Below are positions 3,001 through 64,000 of a DNA stretch of 64,000 bases, one piece after another. The first letter of the stretch is position 1. Every line of letters begins with the position of its first letter. This DNA comes from Nereocystis luetkeana. Lineage: Eukaryota > Sar > Phaeophyceae > Laminariales > Laminariaceae. Location: assembly GCA_031213475.1 (NCBI GenBank), contig JARUPZ010000010.1:11703917-11767916 (forward strand), given 5' to 3'. The position numbers and the translations under genes are program-made. The notes under the pieces are model-generated. The model searched no databases. It had not been told where the DNA came from and was given only the letters and a program-made list of their open reading frames with translations.

Positions 3001-4090
3001 CTATGGGTTGGGTTCCTGCCGGAACCGGTCGCGGCGTATCGGCGCGGTTTGGAAACCTGCGAGGGTGGGAAGGAGTGGGGGGAGGGAGGTAGGAGAGGGG
3101 GCAGTACCTGAAGCGGACAGTTGAAACGTACAACTGTCGTGTTGTAAGGGGGAAGGGAAGCGGGCAAAACTTGCTCCCGAAGCTCTGCTGCGTCTGGTGC
3201 TGTTGTAGGTACTGTGAACACACAGCAGCAGAGAGCGGAGTCTCGGGTTTCGGTTATCGCGCCTTGCGTTGCCAGTTAGACGTGTTCTTCGGACGGTTTG
3301 TGACCGGTCTGGGTGGGGGGTGTTGTGGCTGGCAGCTTACGCCCCACCACGCGTTGGTGTAACTACCGATGGAGCCTGCTGCTCTTGCAGATGTGATTTT
3401 CGCCCTCTATGGGTTGGGTTTCTGCCGGAACCGGTCGCGGCGTAACGGCGCGGTTCGGAAACCTGCGAGGGTGGGAAGGAGTGGGGGGAGGGAGTGAGGA
3501 GAGGGGACAGTACCTGAAGCGGACAGTTCAAACGTACAACTGTCGTGTCGGAAAAGGGGGAAGGGAAGTGGGCAAAACTTGCTCCCGAAGCTCTGCTGCG
3601 TCTGGTGCTGTTGTAGGTACTGTTGATACACAGCAGCAGAGAGCGGAGTCTCGGGTTTCGGTTATCGCGCCTTGCGTTGCCAGTTACACGTGTTCTTCGG
3701 ACGTTTTGTGACCGGTCTGGGTGGGGGGTGTTGTGGCTGGCAGCTTACCCCCCACCACGCGTTGGTGTGACTACCGATGGAGCCTGCTGCTCTTACAGAT
3801 GTGATTTTCGCCCTTTTTGGGTTGGGTTTCTGTCGAAACCGGTCGCGGGGTAACAGCGCGGTTCGGAAACCGGGGAGGGTGGGAGGGAGGGGGGGGGGGT
3901 GAGGAGGGAGGGCAGTACCTGAAGCCGACAGTTAGATTGTACTACTGTCGCGTAATAAAGGTGAAAGGCATTCGGGCAAAACTTGCTCTCGAAGCTCTGC
4001 TGAGGGCTGTTGCTGGTTAAGGTCCTGTGGGCACACAGCCGCAGAATGCGGAGTCTCGGGTTTCGGGTATCGCGCCATGCGTTGCCAGTT
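1..4090. repeat. Satellite array, ten ~405-415 bp units
   Basis: The phrase GTTACACGTGTTCTTCGG (or a close variant) recurs at 6, 421, 833, 1242, 1648, 2056, 2462, 2869, 3275 and 3683, with a decayed start at 4088, giving spacings of 405-415 bp. Units are about 90% alike by eye. Two subtypes differ after the GGAAACC segment: type A reads GGGGAGGGCGGG, type B reads TGCGAGGGTGGGAAGG. Many open frames appear on both strands because units lack conserved stops, but no protein family is recognisable and every frame simply repeats, so none is called a gene. The array is cut by the left window edge. Confidence 0.95.
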
Positions 4091-4239
4091 GCATGTGCTG
4101 GACACGTTCAGGAGGCTACGTAGAGCAACGCCGATACTGGTATCTAGCTGCTCCGGGGTGCAGTTGGTGTATGGATAGTCTACAGTATGCTTCAGCTGGA
4201 CTTTCTGTTCTTCTGTTTGCTTGGCTCTTTGTTCTAGGT

Positions 4240-25227: not shown

Positions 25228-26052
25228 ATGGCAGCGCCGTATCCGACCAAAAACTTCCTCGGATCGTCGGCGGACAAACCGTCATTCTCAACGGGCATGT
25301 TCGATCAGTCACCATCTTCAACGGGTATGCTAACCGAGGCACCCCGCCAGGGCAGCAAACGAGGACGCCCATCTTCTGATCACCGACCCTCGAAACATGA
25401 GCTGCGCAGAGTTGGGGCGTATCGGCAAACGGGCCGTCGTACACAAAGCCAAGAACGCGTTATGGACGAGTTCGAAGCCTCCGTGGCGAGAACGATAGTA
25501 GGCCGAAGCGGAGGTGGGGTGAGAGGCCGGGGTACACCCGATATGAACAGCTGGGCGGCCGCGCTCGGCGTCGACATCGAAGCTTCCAAGGTGATGGAGA
25601 GAGACCGTCGCAGGGTGGAGATGGAAGAAGCAGGCCAGAAGAGACCGCTGGGTGGGTGGCAGGCTCCTCCGGCACCCGCCCGACGAGTGGCGTCGACAAG
25701 TTCGCTGGGGAGAGGCCGCGACGGCGATTACGCCGCACAGCAGCAGCAGCAATCGTACTCGTTAAGTCGAAGGAAACACTACTCTCCTCCCGGCCGAGAG
25801 ATTAGACGCGGTCAAGTGCCGGAAGTGGTCGCCTTGGATGAATTTCTGTCGGACTTGCACGGTAGGCTGACCTCACTGGAAGGTGAAGCAGAGGCACCTG
25901 CTGGGGTGGTGGCACAAGGGTCGAAAACGTCTTTCCCGGGCCACATAAGAGCGTCCGACCATACTCTGGGATCTGGCGGAGTAGGAAGTGTTTCCTCGGG
26001 CGCGGTGGATGCATATGGCGTCCCTCGATCCCTTGTGGCCAGTGCTGAGCTG
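25228..26052 (+). CDS. Exon 1: disordered N-terminus (275 aa)
   Basis: ATG at 25228 opens the frame used by all later exons, and a GCTGAGCTG|GTGAGA donor closes it in phase 0. The sequence is rich in S, G, R and P, with a basic stretch (PSKHELRRVGAYRQTGRRTQ), a Q run and no hydrophobic segment, so no targeting peptide is evident. No domain is recognised. An in-frame stop follows shortly after the donor, which supports splicing here. Confidence 0.75.
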
Positions 26053-29000
26053 GTGAGAGGAAGGGTATAAACGTCCGAAGGTGCATCGAATCTGATACCG
26101 TTGGTACTGTGTAGGTAGCCGCATGTTCGCTGCCAGTTCCTCATGAGCCTGAACCAAACATCCCCTCTTCCGTCTCTTTTGTTCTGTTACGGGGGGGGCG
26201 TAATACATAGTTATTGGTAATCAGAACCCACGATGGACCCAAAAAACCTTACGTACGCCCCCGTATGTTTACACTCTATTTGGTTCTGTGAGTATTCCCG
26301 CGGAATGCGAATACGCCGATTGTCGTGTACGCCTTGTCCGTTTACATGTCATCATATCGATCCTATTCTGCAAGTACGCCGTGGGATAAGATTGGCTTCG
26401 TGGGGTGCAAATTTCGTAGTTGGCGCTTCGAATTCAAGGATTGGCGTCGAGTAAGCAGCACGTTCCTTCCCAGTGGCGCACATGCGAACAAGGCTTCACA
26501 CTCGCTTCGCGTGTACGTACACACCTAAAGAAAAAAACTTGTAGTTAGTACGGTTTTCACGCGATGTATCACAGGCTGCCTTTGTCCTTGAGGCTACGAG
26601 ACATTACTCCCCTGAGCCTGCTGGTAAAAACATCCAGGTGCTGTAGTTGACTGATATCCGTCGGAGAGTGATGGAATGCTAACGCTCGTGTAAATTGCGA
26701 GGGGTAGGCCGGAAATTTCGTCAGCTGTACGAGTGGTTGGCTTCGCGTACAAGTAGACCTGTTGATGCTCTGTTTTCACAACAATAAGCATTGGCCAGAC
26801 GCTTGGTCTACGTTCTTGCAGGGGATGCGCCGTCCTTCGTGCAATCAAGTGCCCGAACCAAACCTCTCCCGTCCCTATTGCTGTATACCTGGTATGTAGA
26901 GTCACATATCTGAAAGTCAGACCACGTACCGGATCTCTCCTCTCTTCTCTACTGTAGTTTGTAGAGGTAGAACAGTTTTTTGTTGTCATCTCAGCAGGGG
27001 GGAATTGGTCTCAATCTCAACGGAACACAGGTATATGTATCGAGGCGAACATCTAAAGTCCGCTCGTGTTTAAAGCGTAGCTGCCTTCCCATGGTGTGTT
27101 GGGCGCCTTCGTGCCCGGACGGTTCTTGATTATGATGTTTTGCCAATGGTGCCACACATCGCCCCAACCTAAGCCGAGAGACGGGATGAAATACCCCAGA
27201 GTCGTGCTTTCGCGAAAGCACGCCAAACACAAAGCAACCAACGCAACCACCTCGACCAACAACAACATGAACACATTTTTGCAGAAAAATATAGGCATAC
27301 GCCAGCTGTGAGCTTTACATATACATTAAAACAGGTACGACAGGTATATATTCCATACCCTGGTAGGCCAGACCTTATCGTATCCCTGCTTGCTAAAATG
27401 CTACCGATACTCGAGGCGAGACGACACTGGGCGGCAGACGACGACAACCTGGAGATGAGAGATGCCGCCTTCCTCCGGCAGTTCAAGCGGGGAGCACGGA
27501 TGTCCGGAGTCCAGATATCAATCGCAAAAATGTGGAGGGGGATGCTGTTCCGACGGAGGTTTTTAGTGTGGAAAAACAGGCGGCAGGTTTCACGCAAGGT
27601 AACTTTTGTCCCTCGTAAGCTCTAAGGTTGATCGTAAACTACGTCGTTTGGTGTGCTCGTAACGGTGCAGAGTGCGGCTCATGATCGGGTAATGACCGTT
27701 GTTCGTCCAGGGAGGAAGACTACGTAAGCACTTTACCGTATAATCTATGGCCCGGGCATACCTGATGGTTTGATGTCCAGCTTCGAATTTTACTAAGTAG
27801 TATAACTCTGTTTTTCCGTTGTACAATGTGTTGCACTGTGATATAATTCATGAACATTCCCAGAAAGAACAAGAAAACCGACCAGAAATCGACAACAGAG
27901 ACCTACCGTATGCGCGAAATGTAACTTGACCCCTACGTGTGCCTCTACGGAAATATCGTGGGAGGCTAAGTATGAGCTTAGCGGGGAAACACATCCCCAG
28001 GTATATGGCCACCGAGTGGGGCAGGAGACCTATTGTATTACATGAAATACTCACAATAGTCTGTGAAAGCGTATAACTGTATCGCATTATCGCTGACGAC
28101 CATGACTTGGGGCATAAATTGCCGCTCAACCGTCCCCATTAGGTTGCAACTTCTTCAGGCCAAACACACGCTTTTGGTACGTTTACTATTTATATGACTA
28201 TATTGGGTAAATGAGGACTACCGTTTTTACAGGACAGGCAATTAGAAGAAGGGCATGACACGCCGGAGGTAATATGCAACAAGACGTTGACTGACTATGT
28301 CTCCACGGGATCAGGTCCATCTGCGTGCTTGGAGCATGGTTGTCAAGGCCGACCGGAAGTATGCCGCCAACCTCAAAAAGTCACTCTTCGCAGTCTGGAA
28401 GGAGTTGGCGGAGGAGGTGGGTACCTGAAATCATAAATGAGTATTCTGACGATTTGTTTTTGATGTGTATTATGCGGTCTTTTAGATGTGCATTGCATTG
28501 TTTTTCGCTGTACAGATTGCTTGTAGATGTGAACTTCGTACTGTAGTCGTCAGCGTCTCGATGTTCGAGGCTCTGTTGTGGAATAGCGCCCTTGATTTTG
28601 CACACGTTCGGATGGATCATGACGAGATATATCAGATCAGACCACATCAAATAAGATCAGATCAGATCCCTTCTTTGATGATCTAGATCTTTTGGGGCAG
28701 ATAGACCCCGGATGAATATATTCTGGGCGCTATTTGCCACGTTCTCCGGGTGGGATATATTTATATGTGTAACACAGCCCTTGCCCACGTATGTTACGGG
28801 GGGGAACTGTATGTCACAGCTCTTGCACAGCATCTCACAACGGCAACCATAGAATCTGGGTGATGTAGATCATGATCTGGTCCATGTGTGCAATCTCGAC
28901 ACGTACTCTATCCTGGAGCCCGATGAGGTCGGTTACCATCTGTGGTTGTGGACGGATGGATAGCGCATACATACGTGTTCGCTCAGAGGCATCATGGCCC

Positions 29001-32000
29001 TCAATAGAAACATGGGGGGGGGGGGGGGGGGGGCGAGAGCAGGTGGGGAGGACTTCGGAAGTAGGATTCGACCGGGCAAGGGGGCTGTGCGCATCAATCA
29101 TCACTATTAGACGGGGTTTCCTTGCTGGATATTTTAGGGGCGTTACTGTAGATGTCTCGGGCTACAAGCCGACCATGGACACGGCCCAACCTGTACCGTC
29201 ACTCTGTCCCAGTTACGTATCGCGGGAAATACACTATAGATATAGATACATATTAGCAGGTGTGCAAGAACAACGTTAGGAAACTCCCGTCTACACTTCC
29301 TATGCTACTGTAGTCTTAGTGTGACGGAAGACCGTCCTGATTTAACACACTGATTTTAAGGTGGCAGTCTAGAACTGAGACCGACGCCCGTCTATACTTA
29401 AAGTTCCATTTTTAGTGTCGCAGTCTAGACCTGTGACGGGCTACCCTCTAGCTGGTATATGTCGGTTTTAGTGTGGTAGGTCCTAAAGGTGTGACAGCCG
29501 TCTCCTGGCGCATTCGCTCTACAGTTAGCAGTGCCTGATACTTCATTTTTTAAGGGGGGGGGTGCACATTAATCCCAATCGAGTCAGCTATCGCCCTCGC
29601 CACCTCGTTTCGATCGCGCCAACCAGGAGCGCAATGCGCGGGTCATGGGCACCCGGTCGTTCCAAGCAACAGTGAGCAGCGTTCGGTTGTCAAGACAAGC
29701 CATCGTACAGTTTTTTCAGGTACGTGCTGCTCCTTGCGAGCGCAGAATGCCCCTCGCTGTCCTGCCGTACCATGTCCAAGCGACTCATTTTATCACTGTA
29801 GTGGTTTTCTCTCTCGGGTACGTTTTTTGTGTTCGCTCTGTAACAGCTGGATGAAAAGCGTGCGCTAAGTGTATATTTGCACGCTGTTCTAGAAAAAAAA
29901 GCTCCTTGTACATGCCGTAGGCCTACGTGAAATAAAACGTTAGCCTTAGGCGATGAAGATGCTGTCAACGCCAGTGGCTGAGCTGACCAAAAGTGTGCTG
30001 CGGCCGAAATGCTGTGCAGGACAGCGGGCAGCCGTCAGAGGGTTTGCCGGCGGCCACCTTACGGAACAAGGCGAGCGTCAAACGGCGCATCCTCAAGGTG
30101 AGAGTCGACGTTTTTTTAGGTATCATCAAGATTTCACACATCGAATAGATCGCCGATCCTCGCTTAGTGATCTAGATTTTTCAGGGAATAGTATGATCCG
30201 GCGATCTGTATAATCTGAATCATGTTGCCTAGTGTAGCATAGTCTGTACGATCTAGCACAAGTTTCGTGGGTTGGACGTGTACTCGTAGAATAAAAAAAA
30301 ACATTGCAGTAGAAACATTATTAAATAACTGAGCTATCATAGTTGCATATGTTTGGGGACGGCGTTATCGAGCCCCAAGGTCAATCCAAAAGGCGCCCCT
30401 CGTTCCCCTGACAAAATCAGACTTGTGCTGACACCGCTTAGCTGTGGGGAACATCACTTATACCCCCCCCTCCCCTCCCCTGCTATATTGCCGCCGGCAT
30501 GATTTGCGGTTGTGGCAGACTTTGTTCGAGGCCTGGCGGAATGGCGCTCGCCTAAACCAGAAGGCGGCGGCTCAGGCGGCGTTCAAGGTGTGCAAGGCAG
30601 TGCGGCTCCACACCGCGTCAACGCTGCTGTGGGCTCCCGAGGTGGTCAGCTTGGTGAGCGCAACCGATCCCGCGGTGCTCAACAGAACGCTCGCATTGTG
30701 TATCTCCCAGGGTACAAACTACATAACGTGGTTGTACCCTGGCCTGATGATATATGAGGCGTTCTACGATAGAGGTATGATATTTTTGGGGGGGAAACTT
30801 GCTGAGCCATCAAGGCACCCTCACCGGGCGGCAGCTGAAGGGGGTGCAGTACCACCACAGTTCGTGGGGGTGTCTGTACATATTGAAGGTGCGCGCCCCA
30901 CACATCCCAAGCATCAGTCGTATTCAGAAGTTTGTTCCGGTTAAATTCCGCAGTATACCTTGGGGGGACATATGAGCCTCAGAAAAAATAGGGCGAACCT
31001 CTATCGTAGAACGCCTCCTGCACACTTCGCTTACCTTCTAGCCATCGCTCGCGCGTGCTTACTGAGTACGCTGAAAAGGCTGCGTACGACTGCAACTGCG
31101 AAGCCACTGCGAGGTTAGATGATTTAGGTTGTCAAAATACTGCTGAAAGCGCTGTCGGAATGTTAGACTTTCGATGGTGCTCTAGCCCATACCTTGGTCA
31201 AAATAACATCCCTTGGTCCCCTCCTCGCCGCGCCACCCCGCATCCCCCACCCCCGACGCCACTCCATCTTCCAGCTCTTTCATGTATGGTCCCGGATGGT
31301 TCAATTCAAGAAGGCGGTGAGGACGGAGCGGAAGATCCCGAAGTTCTTACCGGAGAATGGCTATGAGGTGCTACCGGAGTGGAACTCCTGGGTCGCTGGC
31401 AAGGGAAAGCGATTCGCGAGAAAGGGAGAAGTCATGCGCCGTGGGGGGCAGGTGAGGAGGGAAGCATGGATGGCCCTACCCACCTTGAAGGGAAGAAAAA
31501 AAACGGTGTTTTGTGCGTCCGAATGGGCGCCTCTATGCAGGTGCCTCGCTTGTTTGGACCGTCGGTCGTCAAGCGTACACGTCTGCGGCGCAGACGTGTG
31601 TGCAAACGAACGAAGCATAATCTCTACCAGTAAGATTTACTATGTATATTGTGTGACCCCAGACATTTATCTAGAAGAGACTTACTGCGAGCACATCCAC
31701 GCCAGAAAAACGTGGACAGGAAGGAAACAACGCCTCGAAGACCTTTTCGTAGAAGGTGTGACCCAGGCGAGGACGCTATCAGTAGAGGTGGAATCTCCCC
31801 GCATTCAACCCGACGGGCGTTGGCATTATACTCGGTTCAAATTACTATTATCGTTGGCCGCTCGCCGCTCGCCGCCTTTCAAGACGGACTCTCGTTACGT
31901 GACAAAATGTCTTCTGGCAGGTGTTTATGCGTAATAAGTTCCGACGGTGGGCTTGGTACGTTCGATGGTCGGTGTCGCAGGAGGCGAGGATCTTGGAAGC

Positions 32001-35000
32001 TGTCCAGGTGAGATTGTGCTGTATGACGAGCCCGCCCAGAATCAGCCCGTGCAGACGCAAAACTAGTCGTTGAGGCTGCCTCTCGGGGGAAAAAATATGA
32101 TTCATGGCCCAATGAAAGTGTATTCCTGCGCTCAATCGACAAAATTCTTGTATTGAGCAATTATCTAGCAGTGTGTAAACATCGAACTCGCACCTTATGA
32201 CTGGATCCTTTCGGCGCCTCTAGAAAAACATCGGCCGCGTGTCCATCAAGATGGCGATTCGCGCACCAATTTCCTCTAAAAAAACATCTAACGCATAAAT
32301 TGGTGTTTCGCCAGAAAAAGAAGGCTATCGTCACGGGGGAGTAAAATATCACCACCTCACCCTTGTCGTGATGCTCGAAACGTTTGATTTGCGCCGGGAA
32401 TGGTTGCTGTTCTTGCAGCACTACGATGAGCAGAGGGTCACCCAGGTGTTCAGAGCATGGAAGAACGTGTGCCGCGACCGCGGTAGCATTCGGAGGCGTC
32501 TGATGAGGTGCTGGGAAGGCTGGAGAACGTTCGCAATCAGGAAGAAAAAGACGGAGGCCCTCAAGAAAAAAGCGGTAAGCTTCGCTCTACGTTGGCGTGC
32601 GCACGAGGTGCACAGCAGTACCGAAACACACCTACGGCAGTAAGGACATCCCGTGATAAGGGCTAAGAAGAGACCTCAATTTTCTGCGCACCACTACAGC
32701 CTATCGCCTATTGCTCATTGCCTGCTGGTACTGCCTATTATTGCCTATTGACTATGGGTTGTTGATTATTGATGATGACTTTAGACCGTTGACTATTACG
32801 ATGAGGGATGCTGGTATACAAGGGACCTTCACTCCCCTATGCACTACCGGTCCTTTATTTTGGGGCTACCTAGCGTACCATCAGAATCGTCCTGTCTGGC
32901 TTATCTTGCTTTGCCGCAGTTCGAGAGGCCCACATGAAAATGCGGTAGGTCGTCCCCTTCGATATGGTGACGGAAAGGGTCAGGCGTCGGGCGTCACCAA
33001 AAGTTGAAAACCAAAAATGCTGTCTTAGTCGCGGTTCGGCAAAGGCCACCTACTTTCTAGAACACTTTGAAGGCGCATGGCTTCATATTGAAAGCAAGCA
33101 TCGTCTGATGCGCCGTTCTTTGCGTAAAACACACTTTTTTCGCGGGGCTTTGCGACACTTCTCTTTGTCCCCTTATTTTCGGTAACTGCTTTGTCTCCCC
33201 AGCCTTGTCCTGAACGTCTTGTAACTGTTCCGTGTTGGTCCACGGGACCGGCGACGTTGATAAGTTTATTTGTTTCGGTTATCATGCCTGTTGAGGTAAT
33301 TGCTTTGTCTCCCCTGCCTTGTCCTGAACGTCTTGTAATTGTTCCGTGTCGGTCCACGGGACCGGCGACGTTGATAAGTTTATTTGTTTCGGATATCATG
33401 CCTGTCGAGGGGACTTCTGGAGCAAGAGTATTGACGGAATCATGATCCAGCATGCTTTCCCTTGAGCAAGCGTTTGACATAATCATGGCCTGTGATTTCT
33501 CTTGAGCAAGAGTTTTGGCAATGAACATGGCCCATGCTTTCTCTCGATCCTGAGGTTTGTCATGATCATGGCCCATGCTTTCTCTCAAGCAAGATTTTTG
33601 ACGAAATCGTGGCCCATGCTTTCTCTCCCCCCGCCTTGATGGCGACCGCAAGATGGAACACGTGAGGCTGCTCAGAACGGGGTCGGCGATGGAGGATTTG
33701 AAGGCCTACGCCAGAGATGAAAAGGTTCGTAGCATCGTATTTACCATGATAGGGTGATAGCGTCGTGTCTTGTACATGCTCATAGTTTAATCGTACTAAA
33801 TTAGTAGTAATATCGTACTGACCCCTTCGACATTGGCCTCTTTGACATAGCGACCAGGACGATGTTTGGTAACGTTTGTGTTATCACCCACCTAGGATCA
33901 TGTTGTGACCGTGCCGTAGGCATCAACCTTTGTATCTCGGACACCAGCGAGTGTGTAATCCCCCGATCATGCGGAGGCCTCCGCTGCACTAATAACATTC
34001 ACTCTTCATCGTCATGTTTCCCCTATGATACCCCAAGGGGATTAAAGGGTTCGCAGTACCCGTATTTTTAGGTTCGTATCATCGTATGTTTAGGTGCGTA
34101 GCATCGTAGCAATAGGTTCGGAGTATCGTATTAAATGCGTGCGAAGCACCGAACCACTACAGTAGGTTGAACAGCATCGTTTTAAAAGGTTCGTTTCGTA
34201 TCATTTGGTTCGTAGGTTCGTATTTTCAGGTTCGTAGCGTCGTATGTATGAGCAGTTGTCTGGCTTGCACACGTCGTCAAAGTGATGCTACCATACCACG
34301 CCATGCCTGTGACATGCCATGGTTGTGAGATGAAACCTTACATATCCTGCCGACAGGGACACCTAACTCTCAACCATTTTGTGACTTGATTATGGTACGA
34401 GCATGGCATTGTAGTATTGCGTGACTCGATGCAAGTATGGCGACCCAGTCGCCCGGGATGCTTGGCGTGGCCGGCGCTGCATCAGTAATAATCAAGCCGC
34501 TATATTATCGACACTCTCCCCCCTCTCAGGGCTAGAAAGCGCCAGCGTGAGTTTGCTAAAATCCACGCGAATCGACGAGTGAAAAAAATGCTGACTTCAT
34601 CCCGCGATAAAAAATAAGGCACTTACCGTAGTGGGGGAGGGGGGAGGAGCGCTCGCTGTGTACCCCCGGACTTAAGTTACTACTGTAAGGGAGCGGGAGA
34701 ATAGGGCGAGGCGAGACTACTAAATGGGATGGTGCCGTACTATCATGAGTGAAGCAATCAAAGTCGGTCGTATGATCACCCAAGAGGCCAACAAATGCCC
34801 TGATTTTCGTCGAAAATCCTGATTTGTCTCGATGTTTGGTTTCCCCGCCTGCTCGAGTACTCTCAACGTTCAAACGAGTGTTCACATCTCACGAAGTACA
34901 GCTCCGATTTATAACAAAGCTCTGTGTGGATCGCAGCGGTCCCCTTGTTAATGCGATCATGTGTTGGTGTCGAGTAGCCCAACGTCGAAGGTGAAAGGTT

Positions 35001-53000: not shown

Positions 53001-56000
53001 CAAACACACACATATATATATGTATGTACCTGTTAATATTAATATATATATGTATACCTGGTATATATATATTTCTGAGTCTACAGCAGTTTCGAGTATT
53101 TTGTCTCCCAAACGCGAGTGCAGTTCTAAAGGGAATAAGGTTGGAGGGCGCGGATCTAACGAAACAAGGCATGCCCTAACAGGCATAGGCATGCCCTACA
53201 GTTTATGCGGCCGTGTGAATATGCGACTCGGTCTCGCTCGCGATCAAACACGCGGTACACCAGGGGTATCCGGCAAAAAAAAATGACACACCTACTTCGT
53301 CTATTTAGTCCAGACAAGGGGGGGGGGGGGGGGGGGGGGTTATGCTCAAACCAAACAAGCAAAATTATCTACAACAACGACACTTTGTTTTGTTCGTACA
53401 GAAATTTCGCAAATCTGATTCGTTTCTCGTTCTGACCTTGGGAAGGGGTGTAACAAATAGTTGTTGGTTTTTCGCGTGTCCTCTCATGGGGCACCTCGTT
53501 TGTTTCTGGAACGTATTGTCGAACGTAAATAAATAGTAAAAAATGCTCGATAATTGGTTCGGTCAATTCCTCTCCTCGGTTTCCCCTTGACGCTGTTGTT
53601 GCGTGTTGCATGTTAGGACGGCTCTACTCCTTCAAGAAAGAGACGGAAGCTTCCTGGAAAACGCACTGTCGCAAGTCTCGCCTCAAAAATTGATCCGGGC
53701 GAATCACCAAACACCACGGAACCTCGCCCTGTGGGTCATCCTGAAGCCGTCTGTGGGGGGCGGCGTGGGGGTGGTGCGGGCGGGCCTATTGAAGAAACTT
53801 TGGACTACGATTTCGCGGCGCAGCGCGAGCTTATGATAGATGTAATTCCTACGTCTGCGTCAAAAAGGTCTCACTCCGCTGGAGTGGCGCTGCGGGGCAC
53901 CGTGGATACCAAGGTATAGATTGGACCAAACGCTGCATACACAGGACAGATCATGATCTGTATGATCTGTATTTTATTTATGGTTTGCATTATTTGTATG
54001 ATCAAGATCTGTATGATCACGATTTTTATGATCTGTATGATCTATATGACATGTACGATCTGTATGATCTACATGATCTGTATGATCTGTATGACCTGTA
54101 CAATCTGCATGATATATATGATCTGCAAAATCTGTATATCTGCAGGATGTGTATGGTCAGAGTGATCTATAAGCTAGCTGTATGCTCATGATCTGTATTA
54201 ATCTGCGTAGTCTGTGATCTAGATTTTTCAGAGCACATGTACTCTTGATCTGTATATTCTGTACAGCTCATGCTTCCGGGTGCGAGTCGTATGCTTTGCA
54301 TCATCTGTTCATAGTACGTGTTTTCTGGGTTGCATCTATCTGTGCGATACAGATCCTGCACAGCATATCGTTGCGGCAGGTTAAAGCCTGTAAGATCTAC
54401 AAGTAGATCCTGATTCAAATGCTGATATGTCCAACGTCTGCACGGCGACAGGACGCGTGGCAGAGGTAGAGCTTAAGACCTGAACGAGAACCCGATGTTG
54501 AGAACCTTCATGAGCTACATACTGTAAACCTGGTACGCTTACGAGTAGATGTGTTGCATAAGACACCCCATAGACAAAGCGACCAACAAATAGAAACGGT
54601 AAAGTGACGGGAGCGAAGTATGACTACTACTGTCGTATGAGTACTGCAGTATGACTAGTATAGCTAGTATGACTACTGTGACTACTGTAGTATCACTACT
54701 AACAGTATGTCTAGTATGCCTAGTGTGTCTAGCATGACTCGTGTGACTACGCAGTATCACTAGTAAAAGTATGACAAACAGCTTGCAATGATGAGCTTCA
54801 ACGAAATCCCCGACCTCACAGCTCATGTTTTTATTTCGTAATTTTGTTCGATGAAAATATACATCGCATCCAACTACTGTATATTCCGGTAGTACTATAG
54901 TTTGCCAGTCGAGGAGCCCTTCCACGAAGGAATGGTCGACCCTCAAGGTGCATCTCCTACCGTACCACAGGTTTATTTAGAAGGAGGCGTGTCCGGTAGG
55001 GGTGCATAGATGTACTGCGCTTTCTGAGACTGTTACCGTATTGCAAAGTATACCTCATTCGAGAACCTCTATTTGTTTAACCCGAAAGACAACTGGTTCG
55101 ACAGCAGCTTCCATCAGTCCGAATCAAATCAGTCTGTATCACACCTATCTTTACCCCCGCTTCGCGGCGTGCCTCGCCGGCAAGCTCGCGAGGGAGCGAC
55201 TAGAGAACCGGTGTCCCTGAGCTCGGTAGACTACTATACGAGTACTACTCACCCGTGTTGGTCTGAGTGGTCAGCTCCTCCCGCGCATACAAAACACGCG
55301 TGTCCTCGTAAATACGCTCGATAATCTTAGTACGTTTTTCATCTGAAAAAAAACGAGCGAAAGTGCAAGCCCATGACCAACCCCGTAGCCAAGATATATG
55401 ACGAGCAATACTGCAAAGCACAGACGGCTCTCGAACGATAAGGCACGCCTTAATGGGGGATAGGACGTGCCTCATTTGCTACTGTTACCACCCAATCCAG
55501 GAAGCCATTTGGGCGATTTGTTTCGACCTGCAGTAGGTGCGTTACCCCGATCATCGCTGCACAGTTGACTACCAAACTACGAAACGATTAGCCAACTATT
55601 AATACTGTGTTTGCCTTGGCTAATGCTGACCATCCCGCTTCCAGGTACTACGACGTGCCAGACACACCCTCGCACTGTGGAGACAAGAAAGTGTCACCGA
55701 AGGAGGTAATACCAACGGCTATCCTAACGGCTGTATCAACGGCTTTGCCGACGGCAATGCCAACGGCTACGTTGTCAAGCTGGCGAATCATATGCCAGTG
55801 CAAGGCATGCTGCAGAGGGTACCTCGAGAGTGGTGGGGGGACTGCGGCGAGCGCGTTCTGGGGCTGATGGTCCAGGAGCTGCGGAAGCTGGACAAACAAA
55901 GGTCAGAACAGAACAAAATTAGGCACATACTTGCTCATGGCATGGACTTCAAGCCCCTCTTGGCCTCGGGATGCCTCGCCTCTGTTTACGTTTTACGGCG

Positions 56001-59000: not shown

Positions 59001-62000
59001 GAATAGGCCTGCGAGGGGTGGGTACGGTAGGGTATGCTCTTTAGGAAGCCCCATTGGCGGTGGTACTCCAGCTCTACTCGCAACCCGATTTTGCAAACAT
59101 ATCTCTTACTTCAACCCATGAATGCCTTTCAAGATGCAACCAAAACGTGTATGTACCAGGTTTAGACTAGGTGTGTTTGGAGGTTAACACTGAGTGCTTT
59201 CCATACGGTTGGATATCGACTCGATAAATACGATACCGATACTCGTGAACGAAAACCTAATCGATACGATTTCGATATTTGATCCATGAAAAACAAAAAA
59301 AACAACAACAACAATCAATCAGCCGTGAGATCGAAGCTTTCGTCGAAGCTCGAATTTGCAAGCTGTACGTGATGCCTTATATATACATAGACGCTTTCGT
59401 ACATTAATAGTATATATCTCCTCGAGAAACACTGGGATACCGGGGGATGGACGACCAAACACATCCCATACGATACACGATGATATATCGATATTGTCAT
59501 ACATCGGATTTTTCGATACGATAAACAACACTTGTATCACTCTGCGCGGAAACCGAAGGACCGCTTCGACGTTGATATGAATACCAACCGGTCCTTCCTA
59601 TATGTTTACACCCGTAGTGGTAATGATTCCGCATCATGGGTGATATCCCGTTCACCCCCGCCGTCGCAGAGAGCTGAACTGGAGCGCACGCTGGCGGACT
59701 GGGATGCAGGCGACCAGCCCACTCCTGCGGAACGGGCGAAACAAAAAAAGGTACCGCACCACATGGGCTTTAGAGTCTACGTCATCTAGAGGCGAATGCG
59801 CCCCAACCACTTACTCGATTCCTACATACTCTACGTGTTTACCAATGACCAAATCCATTGTACTGTGGTAGTGTTAGTTCCCCTGCCATCTGACAAATTG
59901 GCAATGTGTACTGGCAGTGTGTAGCGCTTGAGGCTTGTTCCTACCATACTATCCACGTATAAAAGGGAATCCAGAACAGGGAAGAAGCAGTTACAGCGTT
60001 ACGGGTAATCACGCGTAACTGATTTCAGCATAAGGAATTATAAAGAAAGCCTTCATACGTAAGTAGAAAACCCCGTTTTCTCTACTTGTACGACATGTCT
60101 TTCACGAGAGAACCAACAGACAAAGCATCCAAAGCCGGTCTACTGTCGGCAAACAAGTGCCGATCGGACCTAACCCGACCCTCAACCTAACCTTAACCTA
60201 ACCCTGGCGTTATACCCGACCCGCAAGGGCCATCCACACGGAGTCGACGCGCGGGGGCTGTGTTCCGACTATGTTCGAAAACAAACGTGGAGGTGGTCTC
60301 TCGTGCGAATTAGGGCCGAAATATTGATAGCCAATCAGACACATGGGTGGTGGTTAAGGCGTGTAATACATGTCTTACCAAATAGGCGCTGCCCGGTTTC
60401 TGCATTCTAGCTTGACGGCCAGGCAGCACACGCTCACAAGCACACACCCAACATCGCCTGGGACCCGGACTCCGTGGAGTCCGATGGCCACATGGGGGAC
60501 CAGAACCGAGCTACAGCAGATGACCTTTCAGGACATGTACCTTGTACGGTGTATGTAGTGAACCATAAGCGCAACGCAACATCTACAAATAAAAATACAG
60601 CCCTATTTATACCTGGTAGGGAGTAGGGAGTGTTGCTTTGTTTTTGTGTTTCAGTGACGACAACATCAATCACATTCGGCACGGTTCAGGTACTTGTCCT
60701 TAGAGTGGCTCGATTCTATCCCCGGTACAAGACGTGATTACGCGTAAGTAATCAAAATAGCTGATTTGTACGTGATAGCGCGAGAAATCGATTGACGTCC
60801 ACTTGATTCCCACCCCTAATCCAAACTCCTATGACTTTTCGAAATCTCTTCAAGGCAGGGTTTCGTCTGTCGAGTTGTGTAAAAGCTGAATGACAGTGTT
60901 TTGAATTCACTGACGGGGTATATACCTGGTATGTTGGTCTGTCGCGTGTTGGCCCGTCAGAAGCGCAAGGAAACAGAAGAGGAGGAGGTCACCCCGGAGA
61001 CGTTAGAACGGGACATCAAGGCCAGAGTGAGTTGCCGTCCGGCATTTTCATACAGCGACTTGCCGTCCGTGCTTTAGCCCAAAGATGTGGCCTCCTACAA
61101 GACAAAACGATGGTTGGCATTGCCTCCTGCTAAGCAAAGACATGGTTGGTATCGTCCCTTGAAACAAAAACAATGGTTGATATCGTCTTATAAAAATCAT
61201 GGCTCTTCACGGGTCATGACCCGACCCGCAGGTAGGGTCAGGAAGTTTTTGAAATTTCACGGGTCGGGTCGGGTCAGTCTGCGCCAGGAGGTTTCTAAAC
61301 TCTCACGGGTCGGGTCGGGTCGGGTCGGGTCGGGTCGGGTCACCTTTTCCCGACCTGACCCGCGAGATTCGACTCGACCCGTAAACAGCCCTGCGAAATA
61401 TATACAAAACGATGAGGTGGAGTCCTAAAAACAGAACAATGATATGGAGTCTGGACGCGGCCTATGATTTTCGAGTAGAAAGGGCGACCCAAGGGCAGCA
61501 TGTGGAGTAGATAACAAATAGAGGTTTCTTCAGCCGGAAGCAGGTAGGTAGGTGCAGAAGGGAGTTGAGTATGAGCATAGATAGCTTTCCTTTTTTTCGA
61601 CCTTTTGGTTTTCTTCCTCTTCCTTACAGCAAATGTTTACCGCTGTACAGAGTACATACCGTAGTGCCTTCCAGGTGGGAGTGATTTACGTTGAAGCTCA
61701 CGGTATACGAAGAACTGCAGTCGCAACCCTAGGAATAATGCCCTAATACCAAGGCGCCAGTACTGAGTGACACGTTTTTGGACAGCCCTTGACGAGATCT
61801 GTCTAACGCCACGCTTATATGCGCTGACGTTGTTCTTGCTGTGGAGGCACCGGGCTCGAAAAGTCGGTCCGGGGGGGGGGGGGCGTTAACTCGCATTGTT
61901 TCGGTTTACCATGAATACGCTTGTACCCCCTGGTACAAAAGTATCATGCCTCGCGCGTCTCGAAGACCTTCTTATTTGCTTTGTGTATAGTTCGAGTGCC

Positions 62001-64000
62001 CTCCCTCCCTCCCTCCCTGCTTTATGATACTATAGTATCCGTGATAGATATCGTGCTTCGTGTATACAGAATAACTGAAGCTGTATCTGGTAATATTTAC
62101 TTGTTTTCGACACGTTTGCCCCTCTAGACCATCGTCAAGTAAGTGAGTTCCAAAGAGGTCGATACCGGTCTGCGAGTATGCTGTCGATTTTATCAAGGAC
62201 TGGCGCTACGGTAGGATGCCTCTCGTCCCCATCATTACACTGTCCAGGCTGATTGTCACCCCTTTGAGAAACGCCAGCCTAGTGTCAATCTGCTATTCAT
62301 TGCCGTGACCAAGGTTCAGTAGCAATCGCAACAGACTGCCGTGATCAACGTTTGGTATCAACGTCAGCGCGGCTGCCTATTGCCGTGATCAACGTCCCAT
62401 ACGTAGCAATTTCAGTGTATCAGCCTATCGCCGCAATCAACGTTCAGCAGGAACTGCTGTACAGCAGCCTATTATTGCCGTGATCAATATTCAGCAGCAG
62501 CATTAACAGCACTCTATTGCCGTGACCAATGCTCAGTAGGAACTGCAGGACAACATGTTTGCCGCGTTCAGTGGTCAGTAGAGACTACCTGGTGCAATCA
62601 TACAGCCCCCAACGTACTCTACAGGAACCGTGCTGCTCCACTATCTTCTGCACGTATATACTATTTCGGGGGACTATAGTAAATAGGACCTACGGTGCAT
62701 AAAAAAACCTACCAGGTACATGTTTACCTAATTCTACTAACAATATTTGGTCCTATTTACTATGGTCCCCCGTAATAGAGCGAGCTGATTTCGAGCTTGA
62801 AGACGAAAGAGGAACAGGCTAAGAAGATTATCGACACTGCCAAGGATCAGGTGGAGGAGAGCCGGGTTCATCTCCTACGAATACAGGTAAACGTCAAACG
62901 TATCAGGTGTATACTGGCAATGCGCATATCATTTAGACCATCCTGTTTAAGTACATAGTAAAGATACGACCAGGTATATCGGCTAGTCACGAGAATAACC
63001 TATTTGGGGGATGGTATGGGATCATTTTTTTAGTAGCGAAATACTAAACCTTTTTCTGTAGATATAAGGCCACATTTTGGGATTCTAGTCATGGGGTGAT
63101 CTTCACCCCCGTTTTACACGGTAGCGGCGTAGAGGTGCTAAGCTGGTGCACATCGCTAGCCGTCCGGGAATGAATGGGGTTGGACAGCGGCACACCGTGC
63201 CGACCCGGCGGGCAGTGTGAGAGGAGGTACGCTGCAGCACTCCTAGACAGAGGGCACCCGTCGCGACTGGCAGGTACCATGATAGAACAGCTCGGGAAGG
63301 GAGCGACAATCCCAGCCATACAAACATACTTACCATAGTGCTTAGGCGTGTCTGACTCGCAGATTCATCTCGCCGCTGGCCACCTTCCCGCGCGACTTCT
63401 TCGTCGGGGCGCGCACCAGCCCCGTACGTATTTATCCTGCCCCTTGCCACCTGTGGAAGTTTCTACCCGCTCCCCCCCCCGCCCCCTACCCCGCGGGTGT
63501 GTCGGTGCAGTCAATCCTATCGAAGTACGCCAGCTACAACATGGGAAAGATGGACACGCTTGAGGAGGAGTTTCGAGAGTGTTCAAGGGAGACGGAGGCA
63601 ACGAAGGAGCGGCAGAAAGCGGTCGCCAAGTAAGTTAGATGCGGCTTATTTACTGGGAACACGCTTGTTTTTCAGCGCGGTGGACACTCCTTATTTTTTC
63701 GCGTGCGAAGACGCTAGCCAGGCATGTTCGAGTAGGAGACCCCCCCCCCCCCCCCCCCCCCCTATACCACAACCAGTTTCACTAAGACACAAAAATAGTT
63801 GGTGCGCCCCAAAAAGCCAGTCGCTGCTGTAACGGGCGGACATACTATTAATAATCAGAACTCACGATGGGCAAAATTATTTTGCATTCCCCTATGTTTT
63901 ACACATTATGTTGGGTTCTGAACACTACGATCCTCCCGTGAGTACTATATTTGCGCGTGTGTGATGTAATGTCTGGGCTCCCGTTATTTGATTTCTGGTA
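25228..64000 (+). CDS. Long Sfi1-repeat/IQ-ankyrin-coiled-coil protein, 3' end beyond window
   Basis: Twenty-nine exons join without a stop or phase break: 25228-26052, 27335-27598, 28315-28416, 29627-29719, 30020-30097, 30519-30653, 31275-31451, 31921-32007, 32419-32574, 33653-33724, 35618-35748, 36701-36923, 37420-37761, 40027-40110, 40988-41062, 43223-43365, 44667-44754, 46939-47357, 47833-47937, 49559-50011, 52461-52629, 53617-53913, 55645-55901, 56759-56828, 58826-58978, 59670-59750, 60961-61026, 62779-62886, 63511-63629. This is 5,372 nt, about 1,790 residues, only 14% of the span. Order: disordered N-terminus, IQ plus Sfi1-like repeats (about 300-800), poly-Gly linker, ankyrin repeats (about 905-1010), linkers, coiled coil (about 1510 on). 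Sfi1 repeats bind centrin and IQ motifs calmodulin (known); a basal-body or flagellar-root role is inferred. Least certain are the start of exon 2 (27335 or 27416), the ends of exons 6 and 15, and the start of exon 25. The match to one gene rather than several rests on phase continuity. Confidence 0.8.
26218..26289. mobile_element. Short TIR element, family 2
   Basis: Begins AATCAGAACCCACGATGG and ends TATTTGGTTCTG, a short inverted terminus (CAGAACC/GGTTCTG) about 72 bp apart. Same family as 63853-63921 and, more diverged, 46685-46759. Confidence 0.65.
27335..36923 (+). CDS. Exons 2-12: IQ motif and Sfi1-like helical repeats
   Basis: Eleven exons hold the repeat block. Exon 2 has an IQ-like motif, IAKMWRGMLFRRRFLVWK. 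Sfi1-type repeats (a hydrophobic pair, then FxxW or LxxW followed by basic residues) are seen as HLRAWSMVVK, SLFAVWKELAEE, TLFEAWRNGARL, LFHVWSRMVQFKKAV, FRRWAWYVRWS, VFRAWKNVCRDRG, LMRCWEGWRTFAIRKKK, LLAWQAWKRFATRRRRW and VVFRAWSFATGKRNR. Exons 2-10 all begin and end in phase 0, so each could be lost or duplicated without shifting frame. Intron 11 uses a GC donor at 35749. Centrin binding is the expected activity of such helices. Confidence 0.8.
28620..28890. mobile_element. GATC-rich TIR element, diverged
   Basis: Contains TCTCCGGGTGGGA, CTCTTGCACAGCATCTCACA and ACGGCAACCATAG, family signatures, between GATCAGATC-rich ends. Confidence 0.55.
29318..29500. repeat. Degenerate ~75-bp tandem repeat
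   Basis: TTAGTGT(G/C)GCAGTCTAGACCTGTGAC-like phrases recur three times. Intronic. Confidence 0.5.
33182..33409. repeat. 114-bp tandem duplication
   Basis: Two adjacent units (33182-33295 and 33296-33409) share CTTGTCCTGAACGTCTTGTA and CCACGGGACCGGCGACGTTG and differ at only a few positions. A 208-codon open frame across this array on the minus strand is a by-product. Confidence 0.9.
33420..33650. repeat. ~42-bp minisatellite abutting exon 10
   Basis: ATCATGGCCCATGCTTTCTC and variants recur five times and stop at the exon acceptor at 33652, so the last unit supplies the intron's pyrimidine tract (TTTCTCTCCCCCCGCC). Confidence 0.8.
34070..34255. repeat. GGTTCGTAGCATCGTATT minisatellite
   Basis: Degenerate 20-28 bp units (GGTTCGTAGCATCGTATTT and variants). 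A single unit also forms the donor region of exon 10 at 33724-33742. Confidence 0.7.
34560..34738 (+). mobile_element. SINE, 5'-truncated
   Basis: ACGCGAATCGACGAG, CCCGCGATAAAAAATAAGGC, GGGGGAGGGGGGAGGAGCGC and ACCCCCGGACTTAAGTTACT match the body of the copy at 15501. Confidence 0.7.
37420..37761 (+). CDS. Exon 13: helix plus poly-glycine linker (114 aa)
   Basis: Opens LHRDMVKHSVMQQDTAWWLL, then from about 37585 to 37712 a GGT/GGC codon run encodes roughly 40 residues of almost pure glycine with V, S, N and M breaks, ending FEQLKLSGLPEEK at a GTGAGT donor. It links the helical repeats to the ankyrin segment. Length variation between individuals is likely because the tract is a trinucleotide repeat. 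Confidence 0.8.
37801..37902. mobile_element. TATTACGGGGG MITE
   Basis: Termini TATAACGGGAACCGTATTAA and CTATTTACTATGATCCCCCG are imperfect inverted repeats around CAAATATTG and an ATAG core. It sits directly beside a second copy. Confidence 0.8.
37904..38010. mobile_element. TATTACGGGGG MITE, adjacent second copy
   Basis: Starts GTTACGGGGGGCCATAGTAA and ends TATTTAATATGGTCCCCCGT. One or two bases separate it from the preceding element. Confidence 0.85.
38890..39030. repeat. ~21-bp minisatellite
   Basis: TTGCAACCCCTACCTAA-like units recur about seven times (CCTACCTAATTG, CCTACCTGATTG, CGCCTAATT and so on). Confidence 0.8.
39195..39522. mobile_element. GATC-rich TIR element
   Basis: GATC/ATC-rich left end (ATCATCTACAGATTGATCATC type), interior CTTGACCTGCCGCTATGAGA, CATGCAGACTATACGCC and CGGCAACATGAGCTAGATCC, right end TGATCTGTTCGATG. 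Intron between exons 13 and 14. Confidence 0.7.
39580..39885. repeat. ~27-33-bp minisatellite
   Basis: About eleven degenerate units of GACACTGACAGCAGCACCAC plus TAGGATA-like tail. Confidence 0.75.
40027..44754 (+). CDS. Exons 14-17: ankyrin repeats
   Basis: Exon 14 ends in LFRAIDDCDTSEVMK and exon 15 begins LLHLGAQVNA; across the splice they form one ankyrin repeat. Exon 16 gives GVTPLHAAASHFSADYASMI, then LLLHAGASVRALDAVGRTPLQLCT, a second and the start of a third repeat with the diagnostic TPLH and GA-V-A motifs. Exon 17 completes it with NPQTAALLSDHAKRLQAF. Such repeats are protein-binding surfaces. The end of exon 15 could be 41035 instead of 41062; both are phase 0. Confidence 0.85.
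41860..42490. repeat. Degenerate ~60-70-bp tandem repeat
   Basis: Units share GTCTCCGAAACACGAGC, AAAGTTTGGTTGATGTTCC and TTCTGATTTCGAGTAATTTT. About nine decayed units fill much of the intron before exon 16; a single related unit lies at 53085-53130. Confidence 0.65.
43160..43200. repeat. (CAC/CAT)n microsatellite
   Basis: CACCATCACCACCACCAACA-type trinucleotide run 22 bp before the exon 16 acceptor. Confidence 0.85.
44072..44174. mobile_element. TATTACGGGGG MITE
   Basis: CTGGGGGCCATGGTAAATAA at left and TATTTAACGTGGTCCCCCGT plus AATA at right, with the CCAAATATTGTTATTAAAAA core. Confidence 0.8.
44755..44860. repeat. Minisatellite at the exon 17 donor
   Basis: Units of AAGGCAAGTAAGGCACACGT and variants begin immediately after the exon 17 donor GTAAGG; several units contain GTAAGG again. 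Confidence 0.75.
46685..46759. mobile_element. Short TIR element, family 2, diverged
   Basis: CAAACCCACGATCGACCCCG, CCCCCCTATGTTCCTATGTT and CCAGGTTCGGATCTGA correspond to segments of 26218-26289 and 63853-63921. Confidence 0.55.
46939..53913 (+). CDS. Exons 18-22: low-complexity linkers with short helices
   Basis: Exons 46939-47357, 47833-47937, 49559-50011, 52461-52629 and 53617-53913 connect by phases 2, 2, 2, 0 and 0. Visible features are a helix MVVTRLNKLKNILRAEDQRA, a Gly run ending exon 18, a poly-Ser tract from an AGC repeat at about 49710-49735, a Gly-rich end of exon 20, and a helical LEEVNDCWTALDWIVLERKR in exon 21. No known domain. The chain of non-zero phases matching across four introns is the best support. 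Confidence 0.75.
47380..47560 (+). mobile_element. SINE, 5'-truncated
   Basis: GCGAATCGACGCGATTCGAC, GAGGAGCCTGTGATGTGACC and CCGGACGTGAGTCATGACTT match the SINE body. Starts 23 bp after the exon 18 donor. Confidence 0.7.
48133..48241. mobile_element. TATTACGGGGG MITE
   Basis: TATTACGGGGGGCCATAGTT at left and TAACTATGCCCCCCCGTAAT plus A at right flank a GGTATACATG core. Near-complete copy. Confidence 0.9.
48706..48900 (+). repeat. ~195-bp intronic direct repeat, copy 1
   Basis: CGCTTCACGCTTTGGTGCAA, GCCTGGTCGGTGAAAATCCG, GACTACGGCCAT and a terminal C run recur at 49268-49460. Confidence 0.8.
49268..49460 (+). repeat. ~195-bp intronic direct repeat, copy 2
   Basis: CGCTTCGCGTTTGGTGCAAG, GCCTGGTCGGTGAAAACCAG, GACTACGGCCATACATG and a terminal C run, as in copy 1, about 80% alike. 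Confidence 0.8.
50125..50310 (+). repeat. Dispersed repeat shared with 9.8 kb
   Basis: CTTACTTTTTGGGGGGACGC, GAGCGCTACACTGAACC, GGCTTGCTCAG and TTGTTGGCGGGCCCAT align with 9805-10010. Confidence 0.6.
50297..51092 (+). repeat. 408-bp recent tandem duplication of a GATC-rich element
   Basis: Units 50297-50704 and 50705-51092 are almost identical; the second lacks 19 bp in a GATATATCTGTAGAT-type stretch. Each unit holds one TACCTGGTA copy and one GATC-rich element ending ATTATCTGTCCGGCG. The near identity implies a young event. Confidence 0.9.
51456..51670. repeat. ~27-bp minisatellite
   Basis: ACCATGCTGCGCGCGGGTAT and variants repeat about eight times. Confidence 0.85.
52838..52950. mobile_element. 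TATTACGGGGG MITE, intact copy
   Basis: TATTACGGTGGGCCATAGTA at left and TACTATGGTCCACCGTAATA at right form an almost perfect inverted repeat of about 28 bp, even sharing a compensating G/C change, around CCAACAATATTTCG. Flanking TA suggests Tc1/mariner-type target duplication. Confidence 0.9.
53945..54425. mobile_element. GATC-rich element with (GATCTGTAT)n expansion
   Basis: A 9-bp GATCTGTAT repeat fills 53945-54150; downstream come GCTTCCGGGTGCGAGTCGTA and ACAGATCCTGCACAGCATAT, the family's conserved interior. The 9-bp period keeps frames open, giving spurious Met/Ile/Cys-rich frames. Confidence 0.75.
54600..54785. repeat. ~9-10-bp GTATGACTA minisatellite
   Basis: Units such as GTATGACTAC, GTGACTACTGTAGTATCAC and AGTATGTCT recur. 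Confidence 0.75.
55645..63629 (+). CDS. Exons 23-29: charged coiled-coil region
   Basis: Exons 55645-55901, 56759-56828, 58826-58978, 59670-59750, 60961-61026, 62779-62886 and 63511-63629. Content is helical and charged: VLGLMVQELRKLDKQR, AESLALKTKNLEK, WQQKIEQAHCKIRAISRRR, RKETEEEEVTPETLERDIK, KTKEEQAKKIIDTAKDQVEE, MDTLEEEFRECSRETEATKE. Exon 23 holds a 12-nt tandem repeat coding for NG-containing tetrapeptides. Exon 29 leaves in phase 2 at a GTAAGT donor (63630), so at least one more exon lies right of the window. In exon 25 an alternative acceptor near 58902 would give a different frame. Confidence 0.75.
56181..56289. mobile_element. TATTACGGGGG MITE, intact copy
   Basis: TATTACGGGGGACCATAGTT at left and ATTATGGTCCCCCGTAATA at right, with the CCAACAATATTTGG core. 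Confidence 0.92.
56990..57375. mobile_element. GATC-rich TIR element
   Basis: Left ATCTTTCTACAGATCAGATA, interior CATCATGCAGATTATACGGC and CCCACGCGGCAACATGATCT, right CTATCCGATCTTTCGGATG. A TACCAGGTA copy is embedded at 57098. Confidence 0.65.
57650..57900 (-). mobile_element. SINE, inverted, 5'-truncated
   Basis: Read on the minus strand it gives GGTCGACGCGATTCGTCAAG, CTGGCGATAAACATGC, TATGTGACCCCGGATTTGAG and AATAAGAAGGGCGAAGATAT, the SINE body in order. Confidence 0.75.
61070..61200. repeat. ~40-bp tandem repeat
   Basis: ACAATGGTTGATATCGTCTT and two variants (ACGATGGTTGGCATTG, ACATGGTTGGTATCGTCC) occur in a row. Confidence 0.6.
61200..61385. repeat. (GGGTC)n array with inverted flanks
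   Basis: GGGTC pentamers run from about 61306 to 61341 and in shorter blocks before it; CGACCTGACCCGC and GACTCGACCCG flank in inverted orientation, so the region can fold back. Confidence 0.85.
62285..62590. repeat. ~45-bp minisatellite
   Basis: CTATTGCCGTGATCAACGTT followed by CAGTAGCAAC-like sequence recurs about seven times. Confidence 0.8.
62662..62777. mobile_element. TATTACGGGGG MITE at an exon boundary
   Basis: TATTTCGGGGGACTATAGTA at left and TACTATGGTCCCCCGTAATA at right. The right terminus, plus the next G, provides the AG in front of exon 28 (62779). A TACCAGGTA copy is inside it at 62710. Confidence 0.9.
63853..63921. mobile_element. Short TIR element, family 2
   Basis: AATCAGAACTCACGATGGGC at left, CCCCTATGTTTTACACATTA inside and TTGGGTTCTGA at right, parallel to 26218-26289. 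Confidence 0.65.

Follow-up and report, generated by a model that had tools for sequence, protein, structure and literature searches.

A candidate centrin scaffold: a putative large protein with a W-rich Sfi1-like array, ankyrin repeats and a coiled coil

The stretch of DNA analysed here is the window, 64,000 nucleotides of contig C10 of assembly G000 (465 Mb), to which flanking sequence was added. Its genes contain introns, which marks the DNA as eukaryotic. On the plus strand it carries a gene of multiple exons that begins at ATG 25228 and whose presence is confirmed. Its exon chain includes an array of tryptophan-centred sites in which published centrin-binding motifs are enriched, a match to the ankyrin family and, towards the C-terminus, coiled-coil-like stretches. 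Our preferred reading, which we place just on the probable side, is that one gene encodes a scaffold of about 2,100 residues, combining an Sfi1-repeat-type centrin array with ankyrin docking and coiled-coil self-association.

Centrins are EF-hand calcium proteins. In the proposed working, the W-rich array would form a long helix seating several centrins, as on Sfi1; the poly-Gly stretch could be a joint that keeps the chain flexible; the short ankyrin domain might dock one partner; and the coiled coil, by self-associating, would pair or bundle the chains, so that strands may be bound together as a fibre, at the flagellar roots or basal bodies. A Paramecium protein, reportedly an Sfi1-like centrin-binding component of the contractile infraciliary lattice described by Gogendeau in 2007, would, as far as the partial account of it goes, resemble this one in the proposed working (centrin-decorated strands, a calcium-responsive fibre). 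When calcium rises, Sfi1 fibres decorated with centrin are thought to coil and become shorter (PMC6070942, in the part available). For the protein described here, centrin binding, fibre formation and a calcium response are predictions by analogy, and so is its location, for which basal bodies, flagellar roots and spindle poles are the candidates. A scaffold at the basal body or flagellar root can soundly be inferred from the roles given for Sfi1-repeat proteins in the available text of two sources (PMC5112337, PMC6070942). We are more doubtful that the protein stands for a lineage-specific class of centrin fibre, in which a single chain would unite the three components of a calcium-driven cable, namely the centrin array, the ankyrin dock and the self-associating coiled coil, possibly as a linker between basal body and nucleus in swimming cells; this we rate as somewhat unlikely. 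Sfi1-repeat proteins help to fix the sites of centrin action, such as centrosomes, basal bodies and contractile fibres, and are hard to find by sequence. If the preferred reading is true, the gene gives this lineage a testable candidate for its flagellar-root fibres and suggests that centrin scaffolds evolve through added docking domains.

Gene model and extent

The gene is intron-rich and reads, in coordinates that extend those of the window, from ATG 25228, the first ATG downstream of an in-frame stop, to TGA 66053-66055. The hand-curated model comprises 29 exons and 2,093 residues with no internal stop (Table 1). Within the window there are 27 exons encoding about 1,680 residues; the remaining two lie just beyond it, and the stop codon sits 2,055 bases past the window's end. 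A preliminary description had counted 29 exons in frame over about 1,790 residues and had ended the gene at 64000. The unbroken frame across 29 joined exons stands, but only 27 of them fall in the window, the residue number is replaced by the two counts above, and the end is corrected, the reading continuing to the TGA.

Table 1. Exons of the hand-curated model. Positions are window coordinates, extended past the window's end for the last two exons; "finder" marks exons taken from the gene finder.
Feature	Position	Strand	Remarks
Exon 1	25228..26052	+	Start ATG 25228; residues 1-275, low-complexity N-terminus; coding 41.4 nats, donor 5.8
Exon 2	27335..27598	+	W-repeat array begins (MWRGMLFRRRFLVWK); degenerate IQ-like site; 5' end hand-set
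Exon 3, tentative	28233..28268	+	36 bases; splice sites good, next intron 46 bases
Exon 4	28315..28416	+	W repeats LRAW, FAVWK; finder
Exon 5	30020..30097	+	Finder
Exon 6	30519..30653	+	W repeat ILKTLFEAWR, hydrophobic triad complete; finder
Exon 7	31275..31451	+	W repeats FHVW, LPEWNSW; finder
Exon 8	31921..32007	+	W repeat FRRWAWYVRW; 3' part by finder, 5' part hand-extended to an acceptor scoring 4.6
Exon 9	32419..32574	+	Two W repeats, FRAWK and CWEGWR; finder
Exon 10, tentative	35618..35770	+	W repeat LLAWQAWK; hand-chosen; acceptor 2.6, donor 1.7
Exon 11	36744..36923	+	W repeats FRAWS, FSTWD; finder
Exon 12	37420..37761	+	W array ends, poly-Gly hinge; GGT microsatellite 37585-37706; finder
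Exon 13	40027..40110	+	First ankyrin helix (SPELFRAIDDCDTSEVMK); acceptor 6.4, donor 7.0
Exon 14	40988..41062	+	Ankyrin loop (LLHLGAQVNAIY); chosen by ankyrin-like pattern
Exon 15	43223..43365	+	Core ankyrin repeat; Pfam Ank 30 bits, cut-off 21.1
Exon 16	44667..44754	+	Ankyrin domain ends; untrained finder
Exon 17	46939..47357	+	Helical, then Gly-rich; coding 32.9 nats
Exon 18	47833..47937	+	Finder
Exon 19	49559..50011	+	Low complexity; coding 31.9 nats, weak acceptor 0.7
Exon 20	52461..52629	+	Finder
Exon 21	53617..53913	+	Finder
Exon 22	55645..55901	+	Runs into probable coiled coil (VQELRKLDKQ); finder
Exon 23	59672..59750	+	Probable coiled coil (RAELERTLADW); weak acceptor 0.5, hand-chosen for frame with exon 22 and helix continuity
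Exon 24	60961..61026	+	Charged helix; finder
Exon 25	61630..61674	+	45 bases; acceptor 7.0, donor 5.7, coding score -3.6; in the untrained model, not in the trained one
Exon 26	62779..62886	+	Probable coiled coil; finder
Exon 27	63511..63629	+	Probable coiled coil; last exon in window; 5' end hand-set
Exon 28	64280-64900 (L009:280-900)	+	Beyond window
Exon 29	65437-66055 (L009:1437-2055)	+	Beyond window; ends in TGA 66053-66055

Exons were predicted with a home-made, splice-aware gene finder that combines codon log-odds, generic donor and acceptor matrices and frame-tracking dynamic programming. Over 25000-64000, the plus strand scored 208.5 nats, a value that flatters the gene because the codon table was self-trained on the same locus, against 25.6 for the minus strand and 56.8 for the reversed sequence; six dinucleotide shuffles of the same interval gave 0.0-6.5 nats. 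An untrained codon table applied to 104 kb returned 459 for the plus and 103 for the minus strand. Such self-training, like the several exons that are tentative or hand-set, would fit a gene that has decayed or is not expressed, or exons that the finder made up. This explanation is nevertheless very improbable, given that 29 exons join without a stop, that the score lies far above all six shuffles, that the two strands are told apart even with the untrained table and that there is an independent Pfam ankyrin match.

Phase and repeat pattern guided the manual adjustment or selection of exons 2, 8, 10, 14, 23 and 27, so it is partly by our own choice that introns 1-14 all have phase 0; the finder run without hand choices stays in phase 0 between exon 1 and 40027. 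The trained finder omitted exons 14 and 15 in favour of other exons, and the untrained finder had exon 15. Several candidates were not retained: a possible exon near 26375-26450, which has no phase-keeping acceptor; a W-containing open reading frame at 32949-33182, which adjoins a tandem repeat and whose end phase does not fit; and the finder exons 41036-41087, 41476-41573 and 60411-60536. Tandem repeats of 114 and 41/83 bases occupy 33181-33627, within intron 9.

Frame-keeping across exons counts for little as evidence of a single gene, because a high boundary cost chained 70 exons, including those of neighbouring genes. Five boundary-cost settings were run on 8-100.5 kb. The dearest gave a single chain of 60 exons; the next-dearest, intermediate setting broke the chain just before 25228 and just after 66055, with a 28-exon gene between; and under the three cheapest the gene fell into five or more pieces. 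At one fixed setting, a break forced midway along any one of the 28 introns cost 3.2-20.8 nats, compared with 0.0 at the flanks (20.5 kb and 67 kb), and these costs favour one gene without proving it, because plausible splice sites are frequent and part of the cost is built in. The cheapest cuts were in introns 14 and 15 (3.2 nats each), inside the ankyrin domain, followed by intron 1, where the link between exons 1 and 2 is among the weaker ones (4.4 nats).

Two or more adjoining plus-strand genes, for example an Sfi1-like gene and an ankyrin/coiled-coil gene, could have been chained together, since a splice-aware chain holds frame over true gene borders too. The first setting that splits the region breaks it at 26.1-27.4, 28.4-29.0, 41.6-44.7 and 63.2-63.5 kb, and six introns exceed 2 kb (the two longest being 3.0 and 3.8 kb), which speaks for separate genes. 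Against such chaining stand the intermediate setting, the one of the five that breaks only around 25228 and 66055, and the cost of all 28 internal cuts as opposed to the free cuts at the flanks; moreover, the two cheapest cuts fall in one ankyrin domain, which is held together by homology. We regard chained genes as unlikely and the region as quite probably a single gene.

Downstream, a further plus-strand gene of 21 exons, with long low-complexity exons, is predicted at 68812-100078 (L009-L011 and L017); its two longest exons had no Pfam match. It could be a continuation of the Sfi1-like gene if donor 66049 were used. A gene reaching about 100 kb was not adopted, the intermediate setting giving a separate gene from 68812 and the dearest one chain. 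Upstream lies a multi-exon plus-strand gene at 12768-17323 that is AhpC/TSA peroxiredoxin-like (PF13911 AhpC-TSA_2, 64.5 bits). The window begins with a tandem array at 2-4097, in which a 406-base unit occurs about 10 times with 91% matches, and a series of similar small finder exons in it was taken as spurious.

The W-rich array and its relation to Sfi1 repeats

The W-rich array extends over residues of about 331-770 and has roughly 12-13 sites; residues 341-760 contain 21 W. In the available parts of the sources, Sfi1 repeats are described by a consensus Ax7LLx3F/Lx2WK/R that recurs every 33 residues (PMC5112337), by a hydrophobic triad consisting of W, [FLW] at -3 and a hydrophobic residue at -7 (PMC9406199) and by a minimal centrin-binding motif [FLW]xxW[KR] (PMC10180636). 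The minimal motif occurs six times in the 440 array residues, or 13.6 per 1000, against 0.28 per 1000 in a background of 100,710 residues from other six-frame open reading frames of 60 residues or more (144 kb), which makes it about 48 times denser in the array. The triad was also found six times in the 440 residues (13.6 per 1000, background 1.06). Without the tentative exons 3 and 10, five minimal motifs and six triads are left in 377 residues; outside the array, the remaining 1,653 residues contain one of each. When the array was shuffled, the five consensus positions were matched 0.90 times per W (sd 0.19) compared with 1.76 in the real sequence, a value that none of 5000 shuffles reached, and the mean number of triads was 1.70, with 19 of the 5000 shuffles reaching the observed six.

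No site matches the full strict Sfi1 consensus, the best three agreeing at four of the five positions when LIVM is allowed for LL. Both F/L at -3 and K/R after the W are present at four of the 21 W of residues 341-760, and five of the 21 score three or more of the five motif positions. Among 13 hand-chosen sites at residues 354-748 the mean spacing is 32.8, but single spacings are irregular (21-59). The Sfi1 family of Pfam gave no match at E<=5 with an array query from which exon 10 and portions of exons 2 and 8 were missing, and none at E<=1 with residues 1-1048; besides Ank, the array query retrieved DUF2087 alone at E<=5 (13.7 bits, cut-off 22.4). A sequence search of the PDB with the array query returned no match at E<=10, but this search has low power because an ideal consensus helix, used as a control, likewise found no Sfi1 chain. 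Two non-significant PDB matches were obtained with a repeat profile (A1), to glycogen phosphorylase (E 1.2) and to the Sac3-family chain 4wpx_B (E 7.6). Sac3 is a centrin ligand, and a match at E 7.6 counts as no evidence. Part of the array, searched as protein, had no relatives among plasmids. In its own genome, 234 residues from exons 7-12 produced four matches, all overlapping exons of the same gene, and therefore this part of the array has no close paralogue.

An IQ motif had also been proposed, and this did not hold up: the one, degenerate site in exon 2 scores 12.5 bits with Pfam IQ (cut-off 20.3, E 0.13), and IQ is absent from the Pfam matches of two other queries (one at E<=5, the other residues 1-1048 at E<=1).

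The array might instead serve as a helical spacer, or bind calmodulin or microtubules, in a protein that is a general ciliary or cytoskeletal scaffold. No profile recognises Sfi1 here, the IQ-like site is single and scores 12.5 bits, and many W sites lack the consensus K/R or LL, all of which this alternative would accommodate. It does not readily account for the strong enrichment of the published minimal centrin motif and the triad over background open reading frames; and, in the available text of PMC10180636, a protein pulled down with centrin and lacking clear Sfi1 homology was named Sfi1-like because it contains the motif in many copies. We judge a spacer or calmodulin-type array to be improbable. 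The Sfi1-like repeats of the preliminary description are thus upheld at the level of motifs (13.6 against 0.28 per 1000, six triads) and not by any Pfam or PDB profile match. Since neither database gives a match, membership is assessed from the motifs, and by these the array may well be of the Sfi1 type in both working and membership.

The known Sfi1-repeat (SFR) proteins include yeast and human Sfi1, POC5, Tetrahymena Sfr1-Sfr13 and Toxoplasma SFI1 (PMC5112337, PMC9406199, both available in part). As described there, they resemble the present protein in having an array of W-centred sites with [FLW] at -3 and a hydrophobic residue at -7, the full triad being present six times here. The present protein differs in its irregular spacing and its lack of a Pfam Sfi1 match, and it has fewer sites than the 21 repeats given for yeast Sfi1. 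Furthermore, its array is followed by poly-Gly, ankyrin and coiled-coil parts, for which the available text on SFR proteins contains no mention. The Plasmodium Sfi1-like protein PfSlp, which according to the accessible part of PMC10180636 was co-immunoprecipitated with centrin and has no clear homology to other Sfi1 proteins, is similar in being large and in having accumulated [FLW]xxW[KR] motifs without clear Sfi1 homology. However, interaction with centrin was demonstrated for PfSlp, whereas the protein described here is known from sequence alone, and the ankyrin domain present here finds no mention for PfSlp in that part of the paper.

Ankyrin domain, glycine stretch and C-terminal tail

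Ankyrin repeats split by introns had been noted earlier and are confirmed, although the domain is short, with about 2.5-3 repeats and a Pro/Gly-rich insertion. It is spread over four exons (13-16), which when joined give 30.3 bits with Pfam Ank against a cut-off of 21.1; exon 15 alone gives 30.0 bits, and the score is 25.7 in another query and 22.6 in a context of 1,048 residues. Only this single-repeat model exceeds its cut-off: Ank_2 (21.5 bits, cut-off 27.3), Ank_3, Ank_4 and Ank_5 are below theirs. Joining the exons without exon 14 leaves a gap at the expected ankyrin loop. Exon 14 comes from a scan of 40150-43150 for small phase-0 exons, in which one of 28 candidates (40988-41062) fits the loop. 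A paired test showed that adding it extends the Ank_2 match from positions 20-81 to 3-80 of the profile and raises the scores slightly (Ank_2 from 21.0 to 21.5 bits, Ank from 27.7 to 30.3). With the ankyrin part, a phmmer search of the PDB retrieved 282 distinct sequences at E<=0.01; most of the ones shown are ankyrin proteins, either designed or natural. NCBIfam yielded a lone ankyrin-type match (14.7 bits, cut-off 600), and none of 367 pattern matches to this part in bacterial and archaeal genomes was confirmed as a relative.

The poly-Gly hinge reported earlier is present as a stretch in exon 12. Because it is encoded on a GGT microsatellite, its length is likely to be variable.

For the charged coiled-coil tail, a home-made heptad scheme found coiled-coil-like stretches at residues 1523-1555, 1617-1644 and 1654-1706, with scores of 0.35-0.39, slightly above the maximum of 0.33 among 20 shuffles of the protein. 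A coiled coil within residues 1523-1706 is rated as likely, by this score, and the earlier claim is kept at that strength. In Pfam, the coiled-coil part matched only HisKin-conflict, at 15 bits and under the cut-off of 27, and the other tail pieces had no match; the tail gave four matches in the PDB, the best at E 0.11 (mL74). At the opposite end of the gene, the DNA of exon 1 had no relatives among plasmids.

Ankyrin and IQ parts occur together in inversin, CAMTA and IQANK1. These proteins have in common with the present one an ankyrin domain plus a putative Ca-sensor-binding helix, but here the candidate Ca-sensor sites are those of the W array, IQ is below its cut-off, and the order is array, ankyrin, coiled coil. 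No protein with a W array, ankyrin repeats and a coiled coil is described in the literature surveyed, which comprised sources available in part and had most subscription papers outside its scope. Ankyrin repeats and Sfi1 are both named among the fusion partners of OST-HTH, not as one such protein, in the available text of PMC2848206. Each part by itself is familiar, and it is for their combination that the survey found no description.

Searching the whole assembly for the ankyrin family turned up 178 matches among 150 scored candidates. On contig C18, at about 3.80-3.87 and 4.26-4.32 Mb, several ankyrin matches of equal score lie at regular distances in long open frames, which suggests that an ankyrin gene there has recently been amplified in tandem.
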